Source: Ectocarpus siliculosus (Eukaryota; Sar; Phaeophyceae; Ectocarpales; Ectocarpaceae). From it: 59,628 nucleotides of DNA. A program made the translations under genes and the position numbers. Within the stretch, counting starts at the first letter, position 1. Each line of letters begins with the position of its first letter. The notes beneath the pieces are model-generated. The model worked only from the letters and a program-made list of their open reading frames with translations. It searched no databases and was not told the origin of the DNA. The stretch covers positions 361,400 to 421,027 of the forward strand of contig FN647849.1 in the NCBI GenBank assembly GCA_000310025.1, given 5' to 3'. Positions 4,386-58,800 of this stretch are shown here, in pieces.

Positions 4386-5347
4386 ATTGTTATTGTTATT
4401 GTTACTGCTGTTGCTTCCATGGATGTTTCATGTTGAGGAAACTAACTTTCTGACGACGGTGATGTTACTGCGTGATTCAATGCCGATCTCTGCAGACACG
4501 GCCCGCGGCCAGAACGACGAGCTGAGTCTTCTGGACGAAGACGACACCATGGACCCGGCCCATGAGATTCACGGCATGCAGATTCCCGACGGTTTTCGCC
4601 TTCAAGAGGCTACTCCCGGTGTTGTTGATAATTCGTTTACTGCAGCGTGGAGTACTAGTTAGGCTGAGCCTAGGTTGGTTCGGTGGGCTGATGACTCGGC
4701 AGTCTCAGGAGCTACCCGTCACCTTTACGACTACCGTGTGCATTTCGAGCTAGACCAAAGTACACGCAGCATGAAGCTGCCGTTGGAGAAGTACAGTGAA
4801 GATGCGGATGCGGTGGTAGGGTCGTGGGTTTTGCTGGAGGGGGGCACCGTAGAGGAGGGGGGAGATCCTACCATCGCAGAGCAGGGGAGAGATCCGGCCA
4901 CAAGCATTACAGTCACAACGGGAGGAGTTACTAGAGCGGGGAGGACACGCACGCCCAACGTGACCCTTGTGGACCATTAAGCAGTTGAATGTTGCCTATG
5001 ATACCTCTTCTTACGGCGATGCCGCGTCTGTCTGCCCTTCTACTTTACAGTGATCGCGGAAGCTGCAGTGCGTTCGATCCGGAGGTCCTGTTGAACGATA
5101 GTTTTTTGCTGGTGTCAAACACTCTACTTTCAAGTGTCACGTTGATGTTCATCCGCATTGACCTCCGTCCTGTGCATGGAGTACAGTAGTCGGCGTAGAA
5201 ATAAGAGCAAGGACCCCAATTATCGTAGGTGGATACCTGCTCCAAATAAGAACTCGGCAAATAAGAACATGTGCTCGGTTTGGAGCAACCAATAAGCGTC
5301 GCGCCTCACGCAAAATAAGCGGTTCTTAAGTGGTGGCGCGTTCTGTA
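3577..5347 (+). mobile_element. DNA transposon with 26-bp TIRs, degenerate
   Basis: The left end at 3577-3602 (beginning TACAGAACGCGCCACCACTT) is the exact reverse complement of 5322-5347. Inside each end lie repeated ATAAGAAC words; the 16-mer ATAAGAACATGTGCTC occurs identically and in the same orientation at 3655-3670 and 5261-5276. Such subterminal repeats are typical transposase-binding sites of cut-and-paste elements. The interior carries a broken coding region (3994-4977). No clear target-site duplication is visible: the flanking 3-mers AAT and AGT differ by one base. The superfamily cannot be assigned from what remains. The right TIR is immediately followed by the hairpin at 5348-5428. 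Confidence 0.85.
3994..4977 (+). pseudogene. decayed transposon protein, frameshifted
   Basis: The first coding block runs from ATG 3994 (MEILDSREEYRFRLFEKCGM) into an acidic Asp/Glu/Gly-rich tail and stops at a LDG/gtcacc donor-like site near 4280. A possible intron with a (TTG)n tract (about 4345-4410) and a CTGCAG acceptor at about 4495 follows. The next block (starting DTARGQNDELSLLDEDD) reads HGMQIPDGFRLQEATPG, then moves to another frame (VLVRLSLGWFGG, about 4650-4700), then to a third (LYDYRVHFELDQSTRSMKLP ... VGSWVLLE, ending at 4977). The sense of the text carries across two apparent frameshifts, so this looks like one C-terminal region of a transposon-encoded protein that has decayed. 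Its lack of a full catalytic domain suggests an internally deleted, non-autonomous copy. I do not know the family. Confidence 0.55.
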
Positions 5348-9700: not shown

Positions 9701-12700
9701 CGTCGAGGATCCACCCCTGAGCTGTGTTTCTCAACCCTATTTTCTATTTTTTTGTGAACATTTGAGCCTCTTTTGACCCTCATGGGAATCAAGCTGTTCC
9801 TGATTCGAAGCTACACAACGAAAGAAGTTGTGGCACATTTTCGCACTATAGATGGGGGAGGCGAGGATAGTGCGCTTGCCCGTGCGTCTAGTTTTGTCCG
9901 AGACTCGGGTTCTTCGCTCCTCCGGTGTGCTAGGAGTGACCGCTTTATAGGTTTTCGTGTAAGTTCTCGAGCGGGCTCACAAATGGTGTTCAAGCTCTTA
10001 GTCTTATGTCGAGCATGAAGGTCTCAACAGCCAAGTTGCTTTGCGTGGGCACCACCTGCAACTGTTGTGCTCAGGCGGCAGTGGTCGACGGTGAGGAATG
10101 TACGGACGTTTGTCGCTGACCCAAGCGGCCACGGCCTTTTAGCTGTAGTGTTTGTGGTCGGACGGCAGTGATCGACGAGGACGAACATTCGGATGTTTTT
10201 GTCTCTGGTCCGCGCCGCCACCGCGAACTTTCTGACGACTCGGTTAACCATTAGAGAAACGGTTACCGGTTGGAGAAACGGTAGCCTCGTTTTGGCGGTG
10301 AGATTACCCGTTGAACGGTTAACCATTGTAGAAATGATAGCCTCGTGTCGACGATTCCGTTAACCATTGGAGAAACAATAGCCTCGTTTTGACGATTCGG
10401 TTAACCATTGGAGAAACAATAGCCTCGTTTTGACGATTCGGTTAACCATTGGAGAAACGATAGCCTCGTTTTGACGATTCCGTTAACCATTTTAGAAACG
10501 ATAGCCTCGTTTTGACGATTCGGTTAACCATTGAAGAAACGATAGCCTCGTTTTGACGATTCGGTTAACCATTGTAGAAACGATAGCCTCGTTTTGACGA
10601 TTCGGTTAACTATTGTAGAAACGATAGCCTCGCTTTGACGATTCGTTGGAGGAGCGATACCCTCGTTTTGAAGATTCGGTTCACCGTTGGAGGAACGATA
10701 ACCTCCTTGTCGTCTGGTGTTGCTTGCAGGGGTGAGAGTTCCTCAACGGGATACATGTAGCGAGGACGACGGGTAATAGATTCGAGGTACATTATCACAA
10801 ACAAGTGCCCGACGTAGTTCTTTCATCTTTTGTACATTCCAACAAAACAAGTAAGTGTGAAGTAGTTTTTTTCTGCTGTGTACACGTACATTCTAACAAG
10901 CAAGTGCCCCAAGTACAATTGTCTGACGCTGCTATCGGAGGCACAATGTAACAAATAAGTGCGATTCGTCCTCCATTCTGCTGTACTTTCTGACAAAAAG
11001 TGCCAAATAGTCATTGTATGCATATCTGCTATCGAATCACCGGTATCGAGCTAGTAATGTGGATGGCTGGTGACCCCCGGGGCTAATTTAGCTGAGCGGG
11101 GGCATGGGGTATGGAAGGAGTTGACATCGAGCCCACTACTGTGCCGCGGTATTTTTTCATGGTTAATGTGCACAGCCGTACAGTAGTGGTTCCTTGAGGC
11201 AGCAAACACTGGCTGACCCTTGCGCTTTATCCACGCTTTCTGGCAAGATTTATTTCTTTTTTTTTCTCGGAAATCTCGGTCGGGATGTGAGCCTACACGC
11301 TCAGCCGCTTTTCTGGGAGTAATCAATTCAGAACAGACACGTTTGGAGATAGCGTGGGCGTTGACGCCATAGGGTGCGGGATTCTCTCTCAAGTAATTCC
11401 TCCGTGCCGCAGGACGCTCACCGGAATCGAGGTGGCACCGGGGACTATGCAGCAGTCGCTTTCGACGTTCCCGATCATCGAGCTGCACTGCCTCCCGTCG
11501 ATGGGGCAATGGCCGCCTCCCATCGAGGCGATAAATCCTACGATCGACACTGGAAAGTGAGTACATCTGTTGTCTTCCCTTGAGTAGGTTTTCCGCTCAT
11601 GTTGTTGTTGTTGTTGTTGTCGTTGTTGTTGTTGTCTTCACAATATTAACTGTTCCGATCTCTCATGGACCTACCTCCCTCTGCCCGTCCGCTCATGGCT
11701 GTTCTTAAACGAGAATATCCTTTCAGGCGAGAGAATTGTCTGTAAACATGTACCCCGCGGGGGGGTCATCATACGTCCGAAGGTATACATGGCATCCTTA
11801 TGGCGAGCAGTATCCTTAGGCTTAGTGGCCTCAAAGAGGGGGCGAGTGCGCGGTATGTAAACGGCGTGCAACGATCGGGACCCCCCGCTGTACCGTGCTG
11901 CCAAACCTCCCGCCGTAGCGGCCGGGGACCTTTGCTTTTTGGTCCCGGTCCCGGTGCTTTGATGCGTTTGTCACTGCTCCGCATCAAAAATATCGCCAGT
12001 ATGGTCGGATGACTAAGGCGCGAGCACCTACTGAGAACATCCCTCCTCCAAGCACTAAGAGGCCTAGGAAATGACCTGAAAAGGCGGGAGTTGATATCGA
12101 TAGGCGAAGGAAAACGTGTTTGAGCCGCCTTTGGCAGAGTAGGAAGGAACAATTTGCCATCGGTGACCAGTCTCGTGGGAACAATGCTCCGTCCTCTCGT
12201 GGACGCGTGGTCAATGGTCCAACCGCTGAAAGGCATGCATAACATAAGAGCCCCCCCGCAACCCCCCTCCCCCCCCCCCCCCGCAACGCAAAACCTTCTC
12301 TTAACACTTCCCTCGTTCTTTGTTGTGGGAACAATGCTCTGTCCTCTCGAGGGCGTGCATAAGGCATGCAAAACATGCTCCCTCCCCCAACGCGCTTCCC
12401 TAAACGCCTGCCTCATTCTTCTTGTTTGGGTGCCGCAGGTACGTCCAGGTGCAGGCCTTGAGCGTTACGAAGGCAGCCGAGATCTCTCGGAGCGCGGGTT
12501 CGGTGGTCGCTTCGGGTCACGGCGGCGTCCGGAGTCGCAAGTATGACGGTGAGACAAAGGTCGGGCTTTTTCTTGGGCCGCGTGGAAGGAACCTCCTCCT
12601 GTTTGAGGGATGGGAGTTGCTGACCAAGTGATGTCTGTACTTGGTGGTGCCCGTGTCGTTGCCACTTGTCGCTTACTCCGAAGCCTCGCGTTTGGTTACC

Positions 12701-25713: not shown

Positions 25714-25830
25714 GCGAGCCATCATAGTTTTTCGGGACGGGTCAACTCGTTTAGTGGGATGGATTATCGTGGTACGTGCGGAAGACAAGGAGTTTACTCG
25801 ATCTCCTACACTATTTGACAAATGTATTCA

Positions 25831-26495
25831 GCTTCCATGGAAGTGAATAATGACTTCCACGGAAGCTGAATCTACTTCCATGGAAGATACTCCCTACTTC
25901 CATGAAAGTGATACGTTTTTACTTCCATGGAAGCGCTGCGCGACACTTCCATGGAAGTCAGTATTGAAAAAGATGGATGTTACACTTCCATGGAAGTCGA
26001 ATCTCCATGGAAGTCCCATGGAAGTGGAGTAGCTTCCATGGAAGTATTCAGCCTCGGGTATAGCTTCCATGGAAGTTCTTTCGAATGGAATGAGGTAGCT
26101 TCCATGGAAGTCTGTAAATGGTTTACATCGGTTCCATGGAAGTCGTCGACGAACACTTCCATGGAAGTCATCGAAAGAGCTTCCATGCAAGTATATTGCG
26201 TCCATCCAACTTCCATGGAAGTAACCCCCGCAAGACTTCCATGGAAGCAGTCGAAAGTCTGCACCTGCTTCCATGGAAGTCTTGCCATCATAGACCAGCT
26301 TCCGTGGAAGTTGATTTCCACCGCTGTCACCATGAAAGTTCTTGTAGTCAGCTTCCATGAAAGTGTTTTTGATCCACGCCACGCATTATATGTAGACATT
26401 TTCGGCCGGCGCAGTATCCATCGGGAAGTTTAGAAATTTCGTATCTGGTCAGCTTCCACGCAAGTATTCCACGTCCCGCCAGCTTCCATATCGAC
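25831..26495. repeat. array of about 20 CCATGG-centred palindromes
   Basis: The 14-bp palindrome ACTTCCATGGAAGT or a near variant (GCTTCCATGGAAGT, ACTTCCATGGAAGC) occurs at 25831, 25853, 25874, 25896, 25921, 25945, 25984, 26001, 26032, 26063, 26098, 26130, 26155, 26179, 26209, 26235, 26267, 26298, 26351 and, decayed, at 26328, 26414, 26452 and 26482. Start-to-start spacing is 17 to 39 bases, mostly 21-35. The intervening segments are unrelated to each other. Because the unit is palindromic and stop-free, both strands show long spurious frames rich in SMEV/FHGS. The left part is well conserved and the right end decays. Confidence 0.95.
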
Positions 26496-27589
26496 GTCAT
26501 CTCCAAAGACTCTTACATTGTAATTGTATTATTACGGTGCAGGGTGTGCACGTCGCTCTCTCTCTGTGTCTGACGTCGAGATCAGCTTTAATGAGTCGTG
26601 ATACCTGGATGTTGGAAATTCCCATGAAAAGAGGGAACAGTTGGTGTTTGTCAATAATGTCAGGTGGAACGCCTTAGGTCGAAGTCATGGCAGCGCCTGT
26701 CTGTGTTAATTATCTGGACGTCGTGGAAGTGAAAATTTCTTCCATGTAAACTCGCCTACGGCGGAACTTCCCTGATAGTCTCAGGTGGAGCGCCTTTGGT
26801 GGAAGTCGCGGACGTGCTTGGCGATACAACACGGGAGTCTTAACCACTGAAGACTGCCGTTGCCTGCGTTATTTTATTCACCATCTGTAGTCGGCATCAT
26901 TGTAACGGCTCCACGTATAACCGTCCACGGCCTCCTTCGGTATACAGTCGACACGAAACAGTGCTCGTGTTCCGTACCTGTCGTATCCGCCCCTGCTTAC
27001 ATGGATTCGGCAGCAACGCCTGCCGTGTCGTCCTTCCCGTAATGTAGCATATGCGGTTACACACTATTAGGTCCCCGCTTCTTCTTGGATGTGTTTCATT
27101 GTTCTCCATATTTAAATGTATTAGAACGATAGTCAACATTGGGACTTGCAGGTACGACTACCAAACACTGCAAACAACACACAGAAATGGCGATCAGTAG
27201 CAGAAGCATTCCGCACAGAATAGCATCATCAGCTACGATTATGTGATTTCGTCCTTGCCCATCAAGGCATCCTCTGATCGGCTACAATCATGCGATCACG
27301 GCATACTCTGGAAGAACAAGAAGGATGAGAATTCTAAGTGAGCTACAACGGATAGTGTGCGGCGGGAAAATACATCGTCGACATCGTGGAAGGATGAACA
27401 CAAGAACTTCGGGGCATTCTCACGATATTTGTCTGTACTCAATGCATGCCGAATGAACGTAACTTGGACTGTGAATTTTGGATTCCATAAAGAGGAGGTT
27501 CAATCAGGGTCTCCCACACTCTACAGTTTTGCTCAAACCGCCCATGTGAAGTAACCGGAGCGAGTGTATCTGCTAAAAAGCCTAACCCT
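26496..27589. other. noncoding, scattered half-palindromes
   Basis: Isolated relics such as CTTCCATGTAA at about 26736 and AACTTCCCTGATAGT at about 26765 suggest the array once extended further. No exon chain is visible. Confidence 0.35.
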
Positions 27590-27960
27590 CAACCGGATCC
27601 AGTGTATCTTCTAAAAAACGTAACCCTAACCTAAACCCTAACCCAAACCCCAAGCCCACACGATACGTGCTAGGTTTGCGCTGGGTGGCTAAGTTGTAGG
27701 TTGATGTGCAGGTGGCAAAGTTCTACTGTAGGTTGATATGCCGGTGGCGAAGTTCAATGTAGGTTGAAGTCCTCACGGTGTGCACTTCGTATGCAGTTCA
27801 TGGGCTGCCCATGGGACCACCTATCGGCAGCTCCTGGGCAGCCCATGGGAGGCCCATGGGAGGCCCATGGGTGCCCCATGCACCCATGGGTGCCCCTCGG
27901 CTGTCCCTTGGGCGGTTTAGCGAAACTGCCAGTAGGGTGGCTACCTTCGGACTTCGGATT
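27590..27960 (+). repeat. CCATGGG-rich element with telomere-like end, copy 1
   Basis: From left to right: a degenerate telomere-like patch (ACCCTAACCTAAACCCTAAC, about 27620-27650), the phrase CACACGATACGTGCTAGG, two short direct repeats (TGTAGGTTGATRTGC), then a cluster of CCCATGGG palindromes at about 27800-27890 and the phrase GGGCGGTTTAGCGAAACTG. The whole order recurs inverted at 58225-58452. Frames across it code LPMG/AAHG repeats and are not real genes. Confidence 0.8.
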
Positions 27961-36805: not shown

Positions 36806-37368
36806 ATGGGACAATCGAGCTTTACTGTACACACATCTCCACAACCATGGCCAGACGAGCACTGCTGGAAGCAACCCCTGCCGGTCAACACACCTTCACG
36901 AGCTGGAATAATATTACATGCATCGCGAAGGCACAGCACATGAGCACTCTCCATGTGCTTTACGCGGGGGGGGCGGTGGACGTTAGCGCGTAGTGAACCA
37001 CCGAGGTGTGTGCGGTCACGTCGCCATGCTGTTCCACAAGATGTCCCACGTTGTTTGTTGTTGGTTTCATNNNNNNNNNNNNNNNNNNNNNNNNNNNNNN
37101 NNNNNNNNNNNNNNNNNNNNNNNNNNNNGGACTTTTTGTGGAACAGATGGCGAGGTGACCGCACACCTCGGTGGGGGTTCATTAGGCGGTAAGGTCCACC
37201 CCCCCCCCGCGTAAAGCACATGGAGAGTGCTCATGTGCTGTGCCTTCGCGATGCATGTAATATTATTCAAGCTTGTGAAAGTGTGTTGACCGGCAGGGAG
37301 TGCTTGCAGCAGTGCTCGTCTGGCCATGATTTTGGAGATGTGTGTACGGTAAAGCTCGATTGTCCCAT
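36806..37368. repeat. long inverted repeat around the assembly gap
   Basis: The left arm, 36806-37070, begins ATGGGACAATCGAGCTTTAC. The right arm, 37129-37368, is its reverse complement, ending GTAAAGCTCGATTGTCCCAT, with high identity by eye over about 240 bases and small indels. Arms this long on either side of a short spacer fold into a hairpin. No target-site duplication is visible outside the arms. It could be a foldback element, a MITE or a DNA transposon with long TIRs whose centre is missing. Short frames occur in both arms and are mirror images. Confidence 0.9.
37071..37128. other. assembly gap, 58 N
   Basis: A run of 58 N sits exactly at the centre of the long inverted repeat, as expected if the hairpin stopped sequencing or assembly. 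The true size of the missing part is unknown. Confidence 0.98.
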
Positions 37369-44603: not shown

Positions 44604-47600
44604 CAAATGCCGGACGCTGTTGGGCCCGTTACTTCTACGTTCGGGAGCGCTTTTCCTCGGACGCGTGTCGGCGTAACTCTTCTGTGGAGTTTGGCGGCAG
44701 GCGCGCTTGGTGGGGTGAACCTAGCAGCGGACGTGCGTGGGTAGCGGTAATGTTTGAGTGACACGGGAAAAACTGCTGCGGCAGACAACGTGATTTGAGA
44801 CTCGTGCGGAGCAGGCCGCGCCGAAATGGGTGAGCGGTCCGCGAATGGCTGTGCTCCGGGCTTTCTAGAGCGAAGAACACCGGAACGATAGCGTTCTCGG
44901 GTATCCCCACAATGAACATGAGTACAGCATTTCATTGGTTGCTGATCTTGCGAAGAAGATTTGAGCCTGGGGCGAGGAGGCGGGGTGGGGAGGGGAATGA
45001 AAATTTCCGGTCGTGCACAGCACACTTTGCTTTAAGAGAGTTTGAATATGTTACGGTCTGATGGAAGAAATCAGTGAGATTCATTCGGTCTTCCTCTTCA
45101 TATTGCCTTTCTTGTGAAACGATGAATTGCATACCACAGGTGCAGCGGTACCAGATGTACCGTTTTGGGGTTGAGTGTTTTGACAACACACGAAGCGCTG
45201 GACACTCGCGATCCACTGCTGTGCTGTTGACCTGCGTGTGGGAAAATCAATCGGTTCCTGAAAAACCGACGATACATTCGTCGATTCGATGACTGGACTG
45301 GCAGGCTGAGCCAACCCCAAGCAGCATGATCCGTGTTTCGCGGTTCGTGTTGGCGAATGATATCCTGTTCTTCTTGCCCCCTTTTTCACGAAACCCCGCG
45401 AGCCCATTCGTCACCGTCTGTCCTCTCTAACGCTGCCGACATATGGTTTTCACTCATGCCCACCAGCGCTTACATCCACTCTGCTGCCGAACTTGTTTTC
45501 CCACTTTTCGATTTCGGAGTAAGTTGCGCTACTCTAAATCTTCAGCGGCCGTGAAGAGACAAGCACCCGACAACGGCGGGTGGGTGTTGGGAGGACCCTG
45601 ACCGTGTTTCTCGAGAAATTTCTCGAGAAACGAAACCAAGGGTCAATGACTGCTACGCCGCGTCACCCATCTCTAAATGAGTTCTTCGGCAGGCGCACGT
45701 GCTCTCTCCCTGTCCCATAAAAAAGCTCATTCATGAGGACCACAAGCATGCAGAGAATAAAGTTGACTACCGTCAATAGGCCTCCCCAAGGCAAAAGCTC
45801 ACACCTCTGCGCCTCACCATCGCCAAACCGCACTAACGTCTTGTCGCACATCTTACTCCTCGCGTTCGTACATGCGTGCTGAAACTTGGCATTAGGGCCA
45901 CGCGCAGCATCTTTCTCGAATATTCATGCAACGCTGCAGCGCGTACAGTTGGATTGGGGATATAGTCTATCCATACACGACGTGTATCGACGAACGCCTC
46001 CGGCTCAGCCGTACATGTAGCAGATTGCCCTTCCGACTATGCCTGTTGGTTGATCTATCTTTGTATCTATGCAAATCGAGTAGCTGAAGAGCCTGCTTCG
46101 GATGAAACAAGGTGGCAGTGGCACCGCCCTGCAGCGCTGATTCTGTGACCCTAGCCCTACTTACCCTAACCCAAACCCCAACTTAGCCGATTCTATGTAC
46201 ACTTCATAAATTAGGATAAATTTCCTTACATAGAAAATCCTGCGTATATACACGACGCATGGCACGGAGAGGTTTAGTCTGATAGTACCTTTAAGCAACT
46301 GTCGCGTTGTACTAGTAGTCTGGCAAATAGATCATGCACGGTCGACAACAGCAGTGGTACGTACATGTATGTCTACATGTAGCTGAAAAGTGCGTTGTAG
46401 AATCAGGGTTGCACCAAGCGACCGTACATGGGCGTGTCAGGGCCTAAGAACAGCGTCTTGGCGGGACATGTCCTTTGTTGCACATCAAGTGAGCTGCGGC
46501 CAAGGGTGCAGGTTTTGGGAGGCCGGGACCAACTTAAAAAATGCGTGCGTGTGGAGCCAGCCTACCCTGGTTGGTAGTCGCAATATGTATTCGTCCAAAT
46601 CTCGTTTGGGAATGTTGGGTAGAGAGGAAATACACGTCCTAAAACAAGCAAGGAATCAAAACATCGTATTCTCAGCTGCTAGTTTAACTCTCAGATGGGA
46701 GATCCATCGAAAGCGTTGGGGGAATGCGGTCACGTGCGCAGTGCGCACGTGCGCCGTGCCGAGTTCGGCGTGCGGAGCAACTAAAAACGCGGAGGAATCG
46801 AACAGCCCGTTGAGCAGCAACGAAACTGTCACCGTGTCGCCTGTTGGTTGGTGTACCTGCGTCCGAGCTCCATTGCGCCTACAAGAAGTACTTTGTCAAC
46901 AGCCGACAAAAGGTTCCAGCTTCGCGGGCAAAGAGGTCGTGGGCTCACGCTTACCCATTTGCCGCTTCAAGGTTCACTAAGACGGTCAGCAACTGCGCTA
47001 CGAACCAGAGGTAAGTGGAAATGAAACCAATTTTTTTTTTTCGGGCGAGAAGAGGAGAGCGCAAGCCACTCGCAGGTGCGCATATTTGCAGCATGCAATG
47101 GTCCGAGGTCCGACAAGCAAAGCGAAACTCTTAACAACTTTCCTTCAGACCGTGGTGAATCCCTCAAACCAGTGTTCGACATGGGAGTCTACAGGGGGGG
47201 TGGTGCGACAACGACGAATTAATGATCGGCTACGGCCTCACGTGCCTCTGGCCTGCTGAACTGTATGTGCACCTCCTCCTACAGAACATAAGAAAAGTAG
47301 ACACTATTTCCAATGTGCTTGTGGGGAAGTACCATCAACTCTGTCGGCGGGAACACACGTGTTACCTGCGTGGGAATTTCGTATATCCGCAGCAATCCCA
47401 CCCCAGTAAACAACTGGCAATTGTCGCTGGGGGCCTTGTAGGGAGTCACTGCGTGTGTAGCAGTAAAATCTGACCTCAGCCTCGTTGTAAACGTTTAGTC
47501 TATGTAATAAACTGGAAATCTACGATGAAGAAGGTATTTTGTATGCATACGTAGTTTGCACTCCAAATTGTGTAGGAGTTATTGTAGGAGAGTATGCGGC

Positions 47601-55800: not shown

Positions 55801-58800
55801 TTAGTGCCGAATTATTTCGACCTTTCGGGTGGCAAGCTCGGGGGTATATGGCGGCAAATGTTGCACCCCGGCGCATTTCGTCCTCTTCGCTTGTCGTTGG
55901 AAGCCTTCTCTGTGGACGATGAAAACCGTCGTAACTCCCGTGCGCACAGCGTAGTGAATCTCGGGCCTGGGATGAAGCAAACTACTATGTCTCACCGATG
56001 CTCCTGCGCCCTGCTAGCCGTCACTCCCTATTGTAGCTCCACAAGCTGATGACAAGAACCCCCTCCCAACCGTACGCCTCCCCCCTCCCTTGTCGTTGTT
56101 TGTGCGTCTGCCTCTCTGGTTGTTCGTCCCATCGCCGCCGCCTCCCTGGCTGATGCGAAACCATCCGCGATAGCCTCTGTACCTCAACATGTTCTTCGTC
56201 TTCATGACCCAGATCTTGTTTTGTTTAGTGGCGGGTGTCTTTCTCGCGGTGTCCAAGATCAACGGGGATCTGTGCGACCACCACATGGCACTCATCGAAG
56301 CCAACTTACCCGAGTTCAACACCACGGTCCAGGTGAAAAAGGGGCCTAGTTCGAAACGAAACGTTCACTCAAGTAAATATAACACCCACAAACACCCCCG
56401 CGGAACCTCGTCATCGTGGTGAGAAAGCCATCCGAAAACCGACCACCGCCGAGAAGAGCAAGGGCATTCAACCACAACGTGCAGAATCGGGAGACTATAT
56501 CTACTTTCCGCATTTCACATTTGAACCAAATGAACGCTTGGTGCATTTGCCTCACAGCGTGACGATGAGGTATTTTCTCTCGCATCTTGTTCTCGACCCT
56601 TCCAATGCATTTGGCGTTGAACAATTTCAATTTCGAGAACTTCAAACCGGGGCAAGTGGATGGTAGGGAGCATGTACAATTTCAACGGTCCACGCATGGG
56701 TACGTGTTGTTCGATGCCGTTACCGGTCGGTCTTCTTACCGCTGATAAAGACACCCTTGGACGATGTTGTTCTTCTAGGACGTCGAGATACTCGTCGACT
56801 TCCCTAAGGTCGAGAAGATCCTGACCTGTTCCGGCGACGCCGGTGACACGCCCACGGACTCGAACAATTTCGTCGACATCTTGGAAATACAACAGGTAGT
56901 CTTTGGTTTGGCCGCTGCTGCCGTTGCTGTTGCTTTCGATGTTGCCGTTGTTGTCGGTGTTTATGTCATGGTAGTCATCGGGACCGTCGTAGTCGTCGTT
57001 GTTGTTGTTGTTGTCGTCGTCGTCGAAGCCGTTGTCATTCCGTCATTATCATCGTTCTGGTTGATCACTTGGTTCAATTGTTTTCGTTGTCTATGTTGTC
57101 GTCGCCGTGCTGCCACAGGCAGCACAACCGACAGACCAACAGACACCCCGGGAAATTATCCCCTTCGTTTTCAACCATCTCTTGGGCCTTATCTCATTGC
57201 AAGATATTGCCATCGTTGCGCTCACACCGTGAAGTCCTCGGTTCGTCAAGAATATTGATCCCCCACGACTCTCGATGAAATGTTCAGATCTTCAACATCT
57301 CGTCGACTCTGAAGGAAGCGAGCAGCCTCATCACGGATAACTCCGCGCTCCTGGCCGAGCCCAAGGACTCCGTTCTAGACGCCCAGGTAACCGTCACATG
57401 CACAAGCTCGAAGCAGGAGGTTGTTGCACGCAGTAATTGGTATTGTATTGAGAAATTGACCAAGCTCAAAACAAGTGTTGCAAACAGTTGTTGTACGACA
57501 CGGGTTCACTACCTACTGTCAAAGTTTTCTTCGAGAGTTCGATATTACATTAATTTTCCTGTCGTCTCTGCCTGATTATTCGTTGTTCGAAAAATCACCA
57601 TGCGGTGTTTCTTGTGCTTTCCGGTTTCGCGCAGTTGCAAAGAGTAAGAGTAAGAGTAACTAGTTGCTGAATCTTGCCGTTAGCTTCGATTTTGATGTGA
57701 ACGTCCCAATGGGTACCTCTTATATTTGTTTCTTGAAGAAGAGCACCTCGAGGTTAACTCCAAGGTGGTGGGGGGGGAAACAACGAGTCCAACATTTTCC
57801 GGGGCTATGTAGTTCAGTGGTTGTGTGCTCCACCGGCGGCATTTGTTTTGGGGGGGGGGCGTTATCGAAAAGACAATTAATGCCGACCCATTTGTGAAAC
57901 GCAGAGGCACAGCACCGGTGCTGACCCAACGGATTCACTCATTCTCTGTGCCCCCCTGCCCCCCCCGTCCGATAATTAAGCGGTTGCTCGTGTGTGGTTG
58001 TCCTTACGAGGCGTGGTCGAAGCAAGATCATAGCGATCATGGGGTCTTTATGTTCTAAGGGCCCCCATTACCTGTTCAAAATGATGCCTAATGTCACCTT
58101 GCACCAACGCAACTGCAAGGGCGAGATTCCGGTCACAGAGCGATTCTTGGCACCCACTGCCCGCGTGCCTTGGCTCTTCAGCGTTCTGCTGGCGTATGGC
58201 GGTAGTGGGCGAAAAGTCTCAATCACCCACCCTACTGACAGTTTTGCTAAACCGCCCATCGGGGGGCACCCATGGGCAGCCCATGAACCTCCCATGGGCT
58301 ACCCATGAGATACCCAGGCCCATGGGCAGCCCATGAACTGCGCACCTACCGTGGGCACTTCAACCTAGAGCTCGCCACCGGCATATCAACCTACAACTTA
58401 GCCAGAGTCCACCTAGCACGTATCGTGTTGGCTTGGGGTTAGGGTTCGGGCTAGCATTAAGTTAATAGCCGTAGTAATGCCTGTTCCAAAGCAGATAATA
58501 TCTTGTTCAGGAGCACACTGGTTCCGTTTGAAGGGCACTCAGCGGCCACCTATGGGCTGCCCATGGGCTGCCCATGCGCTGCACACGGGCTACCCATGGG
58601 CTTGCCCGTGGGCATTCCTCATGGACTACCCATGGGCAACAAAAAGAGCGAAAATACTCAACAGGATTCGCCAGATGACCACAGGCGTCCGAGGCACTTT
58701 CTCCTCGACGGTCATCAAGTATCACTCTCCCAAACCACATGCCGAGTGCGTCCCCCTCCTTCACACATATTAGCCCAGGAACGAACCCGCCTTTTGTTCA

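Follow-up and report, generated by a model that had tools for sequence, protein, structure and literature searches.

A palindrome array of Ectocarpus siliculosus as the subterminal region of a family of DNA transposons

An array of 14-bp palindromes with unrelated spacers, found in a 59,628-nucleotide stretch of the genome of the brown alga Ectocarpus siliculosus (assembly GCA_000310025.1, contig FN647849.1, positions 361,400 to 421,027; hereafter the window, to whose numbering the coordinates refer unless a contig or locus is named), makes up the subterminal part of elements in a family of DNA transposons, being the inner portion of a longer element that begins at 25801. The array is no stand-alone feature and, as far as the evidence goes, it belongs to the transposon and not to the host. 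In short relatives of the element the 5' end is conserved, the 3' end is inverted and target-site duplications of 9 bp are present, and these copies consist of the two ends with palindromes between them. That long relatives share the non-array tail of the window copy, along with a candidate gene, is strongly suggested. The features of the window on which we draw are as follows:

25801..25824, plus strand: 5' terminal motif ATCTCCTACACTATTTGACAAATG, a sharp boundary whose core is the terminal inverted repeat of the relatives (from genome matches and the start of homology)
25831..26465, no strand assigned: palindrome array of 21 units, consensus RCTTCCATGGAAGY, with unrelated spacers (from unit scans)
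26466..27161, plus strand: non-array tail in common with the copy on contig C74 (89-90% in the last half), the similarity stopping abruptly at 27161
26645..26664, minus strand: imperfect match to the terminal core (4 edits) within the tail, also in the C74 copy
27510..27940, no strand assigned: second, related-looking element with imperfect terminal inverted repeats and GCCCATGGGC-like palindromes at about 27796-27913
58231..58637, plus strand: copy of the second family, with its terminus at 58231-58257 and GCCCATGGGC-like palindromes at 58268-58637

As to the array itself, 21 units with up to two mismatches to RCTTCCATGGAAGY lie within 25831-26465, while 300 shuffles of 25800-26500 never gave more than one unit, and the array of about 20 palindromes described in a first-pass annotation of the sequence is therefore real, its proposed end at 26495 being slightly generous, as the last clear unit stops at 26465 and is followed only by a half site, CTTCCAT, at 26483-26489. 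With up to three mismatches, ACTTCCATGGAAGT has 24 matches in the whole window, against an expectation of 2.48, 21 of them in 25831-26465 and the remaining three at 4413, 26766, and 42477; exact copies number 12 for the 12-mer core and four for the full 14-mer. Steps from one unit start to the next measure 11-39 bases over the first 19 units, then 53 and 101, and the spacers, judged by eye, do not resemble one another, as the annotation had stated. The variation it had reported at the outer bases (A or G on the left, T or C on the right) extends to 708 units from the window and related arrays, position 1 being A in 58% and G in 35%, and position 14 being T in 56% and C in 36%. An ordinary minisatellite, in which the spacers would be diverged copies of one longer unit, is rejected, the spacers of the window being unrelated and the whole of unit plus spacer not being tandemly repeated there; locally tandem blocks do occur in some relatives (L030 and L040). 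Also rejected is a CRISPR array, the likeness to which had rightly been called superficial, with spacers of inconstant length (steps of 11-101), in a eukaryotic genome and inside a transposon. At gathering scores, Rfam has no match within the window. Within the genome (189 Mb in 492 contigs searched) the array is far from unique, the exact 12-bp core CTTCCATGGAAG occurring 1212 times versus 6 times for its reversal.

The placement of the palindromes relative to a terminus ties the array to a mobile element. The array begins 30 bp inside the sharp boundary at 25801, and similarity of the window to other arrays starts at 25799-25801, just upstream of the array. The 24-mer at this terminus, ATCTCCTACATTATTTGACAAATG, has 36 sites in the genome with up to three mismatches, and its reversed control none; for the terminal core CCTACACTATTTGACAAATG there are 151 matches versus 0 in the control. 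We cut out 30 terminus loci, including the window's own site (L034). Their upstream flanks differ, except in two pairs of segmental duplicates, and downstream of the terminus nearly all of them carry an array, with at least one palindrome within 500 bp inside the terminus in 29 of the 30 loci and at least three in 26, versus any palindrome within 500 bp outside it in five. In 25 of the 30 loci, the window locus among them (26 of 31 sequences when the window is counted twice), precisely 30 bp separate the terminus from the first palindrome, and copy-to-copy alignments start within about 15 bp of the terminus, the exceptions being segmental duplicates and alignments of inner parts only. No unit with up to two mismatches was found in any of seven arbitrary 10-kb stretches.

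Inheritance of the arrays can be followed in six independently inserted copies of the window's subfamily, which align palindrome by palindrome and spacer by spacer. Copies with unrelated flanks share their palindromes and spacers in an unchanged order, and the array therefore moves together with the element. The differences that can be read between copies are blocks gained or lost between palindromes. One example is L026, with five palindromes in a row, of which, judged by eye, the first is fused to the third and the fourth to the fifth in the window, the stretches between the fused palindromes being missing from the window copy. Other examples are L030, in which one block is duplicated, and L040, in which a block of spacer plus palindrome stands in tandem. 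Copies of the subfamily also stop at different 3' points. The array is resized by exchange between palindromes, and units do not appear to arrive singly.

The short relatives, of 0.35-1.4 kb overall, reveal both ends of the element. Eight of them, read whole, measure 351-1122 bp; an element on C24 spans about 1.4 kb, and a ninth, L055, has 3749 bp including an insert. Relatives of one group, group B (L037, L047, L049, L050, L051, L054, and others), carry the terminal core in inverted orientation at the other end, ...CATTTGTCAAATAGTGTAGGTTACC, and this 3'-type end has 40 matches in the genome versus 0 in the control, three of the 40 being really 5'-type and five lying in tandem core arrays. Short relatives thus have terminal inverted repeats, which share the core CCYACACTATTTGACAAATG in opposite orientations and differ in their few outermost bases (CGATCTCC versus GGGTAACC). 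In seven of the eight elements read whole, the stretch between an end and the nearest palindrome measures 30 bp on one side and 30-34 bp on the other, and their 12-33 palindromes take up 38-48% of the length; in the eighth (L042), whose 3' end is less convincing, 21 palindromes take up 26%.

Among the 14 elements with both ends in hand, the 9-bp flanks match exactly in six (L037, L047, L049, C15, C66, and C24), versus none of 182 mispaired flanks, and at 8 of 9 positions in two more, versus 6 of 182, one of these two, on C9, lying inside a GCCCATGGGC array, so that the match may stem from the repetitive nature of that array (a copy of the first family sits within an array of this type at C9:5722446-5723388). 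The other six pairs match at 7 of 9 positions at most. Left out of the comparison were L007, both ends of which look degenerate, and L045, L048, and L053, for which no 3' end was found, L048 and L053 being segmental duplicates of L049 and L054, respectively. The distance between duplication and 5' motif is 0-6 bases in the six exact cases, which means that the precise 5' end is variable, with CCCCG added there in some copies. With their inverted ends and 9-bp duplications, the short relatives are miniature inverted-repeat (MITE) or non-autonomous TIR DNA transposons. In the window, a search for the 3' end of the resident copy found none.

The tail of the window copy connects it to much longer relatives. 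The core match at 26645..26664, being present also in the C74 copy, is not taken as the end of the window copy, and as the C74 and C404 copies continue alike past 27161, the window copy appears to be truncated at its 3' side, or its remainder to be replaced; it has the look of a long element that has lost its 3' part. A 30-mer from the end of the tail has eight sites in the genome, the window's included. A 130-aa exon, defined from C404 (L060 607-996, minus strand), recurs on C144 (95%), C74 (83%), C25 (79%), and C2 (62%, with stops), and near ends on C117 (41%) and C94 (37%, with stops), with 14 weak matches elsewhere; searches of NCBIfam and PDB gave it no match of its own, and Pfam gave it no transposase. 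Relative to the terminal-core arrays or the 3'-type end, the order of this exon is the same on C404, C144, C74, and C25. On C74 a 5' end (155048), the 30-mer (156692), the exon (188631), and a 3'-type end (192204) follow each other, from which the element is probably about 37 kb long. A copy on C25 (2305162-2313101) spans 7.9 kb, with flanks matching at 7 of 9 positions. In the long relatives the terminal core and the palindrome, the latter often degenerate, are amplified together in tandem repeats of about 117 bp. Tandem repeats with the terminal core in each unit lie at L056 1-751, C70, C144, C268, C404, C16:3123315-3124127, and C25:533007-533551, the unit being about 75 bp on C25 and about 117 bp otherwise. 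These tandem cores are terminal signals multiplied inside long elements.

No transposase was recognized in the parts of elements that were read, for which part of the open reading frames was scanned. In L006, which has two arrays about 4.2 kb apart, 9 of the 30 listed frames were scanned, together with one from L055, and yielded no transposase and three weak matches, all below curated cut-offs. Scanning of 75 of the 188 frames near ends likewise yielded no transposase and one EsV-1-7 motif, and among the 49 scanned of the 126 frames of at least 55 aa in L058, L059, and L060 the best match, Beta_elim_lyase (E 0.0003), is unconvincing. The 3.75-kb copy on C39 (L055) was considered as an autonomous copy and rejected: it is an array element split (at about 144-2640) by an insert bounded by similar direct repeats of about 125 bp, perhaps a nested retroelement.

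As to the superfamily, Helitrons came into question through the A|TC start and the variable 3' ends of the window's subfamily. Helitrons make no target duplication and have 5'-TC and CTRR-3' ends, inserted between A and T. The inverted ends and 9-bp duplications exclude a Helitron for the short relatives. The duplication length does fit Mutator-like elements (MULEs), in which duplications reach 8-11 bp. The genome has 63 matches to the MULE domain PF10551, none of them inside an element with both ends located, the long elements having been read in part. A weak match below the cut-off (C9:1783254-1783659) lies 13 kb inside a 5' end (C9:1770210) of a one-ended copy, and this and another weak one (C3:1182463-1182868) lie 11-14 kb from weak matches to the exon, in differing relative orientations. 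For the Mutator-like element Muta1 of Aedes aegypti, duplications of 8-9 bp are given, similar to the 9 bp here (PMC5225508). KDZ elements differ in duplication length, at 8 bp for Zisupton and 7 bp for Kyakuja (PMC12730594), versus 9 bp here; searches for KDZ and CxC2 domains (PF18758 and PF18803) found nothing anywhere, with the controls equally blank. CACTA/EnSpm is rejected, as the ends are ATCTCC and GGTAACC and the duplication is 9 bp, not CACTA-type ends with 3 bp.

A second family in the same window appears transposon-like and related, and carries another CCATGG-centered palindrome array. Its left end, TCTCCCACACT, begins like the 5' end of the first family, its terminal motif is matched at 107 genome sites with up to three mismatches (none in the control), and GCCCATGGGC is present 839 times, as compared with 237 for the reversed sequence. 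The copy at 58231..58637 shows inverted homology with 27727-27877. Elsewhere in the window, a 41-bp minisatellite with GGTTAACC palindromes (about eight copies) occupies 10316-10705, a perfect 26-bp palindrome made of two TTTCTCGAGAAA units lies at 45606-45631, a run of N (an assembly gap, 37071-37128) is placed between the arms of an inverted repeat of about 240 bp (36806-37046 and 37129-37368, 91%), and there is a weak PAP-fibrillin match.

The symmetry of the palindrome was analyzed in the 708 units, each with up to three mismatches, a cut that disfavors double changes but has little effect on the outer pair. Complementary double changes at the seven symmetric pairs show no clear excess (the largest being 6 versus 5.1 expected), and at the outer pair, where either purine and either pyrimidine passes the cut, they are rarer than expected (65 versus 90), with A-T plus G-C pairs numbering 272 versus 332 for mismatched A-C plus G-T. 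Such a pattern speaks against hairpins held by base pairing and agrees with a dimer that recognizes its two half-sites separately. Conservation of the palindromes is modest and uneven. Over 16 overlapping pairs of copies they differ at 257 of 3461 positions versus 511 of 4116 in the spacers, outer bases (57 of 539) set aside, and over eight disjoint pairs, outer bases included, at 148 of 1697 versus 173 of 1530 (P=0.016), or at 106 of 1592 versus 129 of 1290 when CpG positions are removed (P=0.001). In the L037-L052 pair the palindromes have changed more than the spacers, and in L042-L051 and L045-L050 about equally. In two segmental duplicates that arose after insertion, the palindromes differ at 5 of 177 positions versus 25 of 287 in spacers (P=0.011; outer bases, 2 of 30, set aside) and versus 159 of 2575 in flanks (P=0.07); selection for transposition does not predict such conservation after insertion, which leaves room for mutation bias, conversion, or a role in the host. 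Helical phasing looked strong on all 648 spacings and was gone (10.5-bp period, P=0.26) on 229 clusters of similar spacers, a clustering that over-merges, shuffled spacers also falling from 609 to 406.

Taken as the subterminal part of a DNA transposon, the palindromes are probably dimer sites for a transposase or an accessory protein that gathers the ends of the element. Each palindrome would bind a dimer of such an element-encoded protein, and the bound protein would bring the two ends together for excision; many sites would raise its local concentration, and short copies that keep ends and sites could thereby be moved in trans, with the number of sites changing through recombination or slippage between palindromes. 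From sequence, these remain putative sites. The first-pass annotation had offered a dimeric protein-binding site, a recombination or replication hotspot, and a short palindromic element that inserts into its own copies. The dimeric site fits best, but not as a site on the side of the host, the array belonging, on present evidence, to the transposon. The self-inserting palindromic element would account for spacers that look unrelated within an array, but it is largely refuted: independent copies at different sites agree in their palindromes, their spacers, and the order of both, and differ by blocks, and nowhere in the six-copy alignment has a single palindrome been gained with a duplicated target. 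Selection for a hairpin or cruciform in DNA or RNA, to which the perfect, loop-free dyads would lend themselves, is highly improbable in view of the missing excess of complementary changes and of the outer pairs, among which the mismatched combinations prevail.

The palindromes might instead be passive cargo, a satellite-like array that stems from one ancestral transposon, hitch-hikes with it and is resized by recombination, with no binding function. Gain and loss of units do resemble slippage or recombination between palindromes, the constraint is modest and in some pairs absent, and the duplicates formed after insertion show the same pattern of conservation. However, the spacers of the window are mutually unlike, which is not what a young satellite looks like, the short copies retain their ends and palindromes, with an equal offset of 30 bp on either side, the long relatives repeat core and palindrome together, and the second family carries a palindrome array of its own, and we thus view passive cargo as unlikely. 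A binding factor of the host, involved in transcription, chromatin, or silencing, and either exploited by the transposon or used to recognize it, seems less likely still; a dyad with independently varying halves would fit any dimeric protein, and the apparent conservation after insertion would agree, but the sites go with element ends (in 29 of 30 loci), and, with no units in the seven arbitrary stretches, a host regulon is not apparent. A further, doubtful proposal is that the families represent a new superfamily or deep lineage of giant brown-algal transposons, with CCATGG-palindrome landing arrays (ACTTCCATGGAAGT or GCCCATGGGC, by family) and dimeric binders of their own, the 130-aa exon possibly being part of the machinery.

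Known systems offer partial parallels. Muta1 has nine copies of a 12-bp subterminal repeat with spacers of 3-4 bp, and its derivatives, like the copies here, keep the ends, vary in repeat number, and carry other internal sequence; however, its repeats stand in tandem inside the 145-bp TIRs of a 3.2-kb element, whereas the palindromes here fill hundreds of base pairs, and relatives here probably reach about 37 kb, with no MULE domain found in located elements (PMC5225508). The 10-bp terminal motif of Muta1 is an imperfect palindrome, and in the text seen its subterminal repeat is not so called (PMC5225508). The soybean CACTA/En-Spm element Tgmt*, a large element with deletion derivatives in its group, has many subterminal motifs, direct and inverted, near its ends, as here, and such CACTA motifs are known or proposed sites for a TNPA-like binding protein, but its CACTA ends and 3-bp duplication differ from the ATCTCC ends and 9-bp duplications here (PMC2613891). 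Ectocarpus possesses giant KDZ, EnSpm, and Sola-1 transposons, the transposase often being broken or unrecognizable, and its repeats include a class of 51 unclassified DNA families (PMC12477816). The main text of that paper contains neither "palindrom" nor "subterminal" (0 occurrences each), and the first palindrome family may already sit in its repeat library. In open-access literature, at the level of titles and listings, no description of this palindrome array was found. Viral contigs contain no pairs of the palindrome, and prokaryote contigs contain triples in four stretches, three in Segatella maculosa and one in a Streptomyces. S. maculosa, an unrelated organism matched on three contigs, of which two were read, has arrays of its own, with TCTTCCATGGAAGA-like palindromes about 35-50 bp apart (L070 380-599 and L072 6458-6595).

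Overall, it is the transposon that is unusual, with sites that resemble the subterminal repeats of Muta1 and CACTA elements but are palindromic and fill the element, and the array is an ordinary part of it. An odd repeat thus becomes a testable transposon architecture, with dozens of near-identical putative dimer sites at irregular spacing, kept in copies from very short to very large and accompanied by a similarly built second family in the same window. The palindrome provides a simple sequence tag for an element family possibly among the unclassified repeats of brown algae, and a direct route to a candidate DNA-binding protein. Where mysterious arrays are met, element ends and target duplications are to be looked for before a function in the host is proposed.
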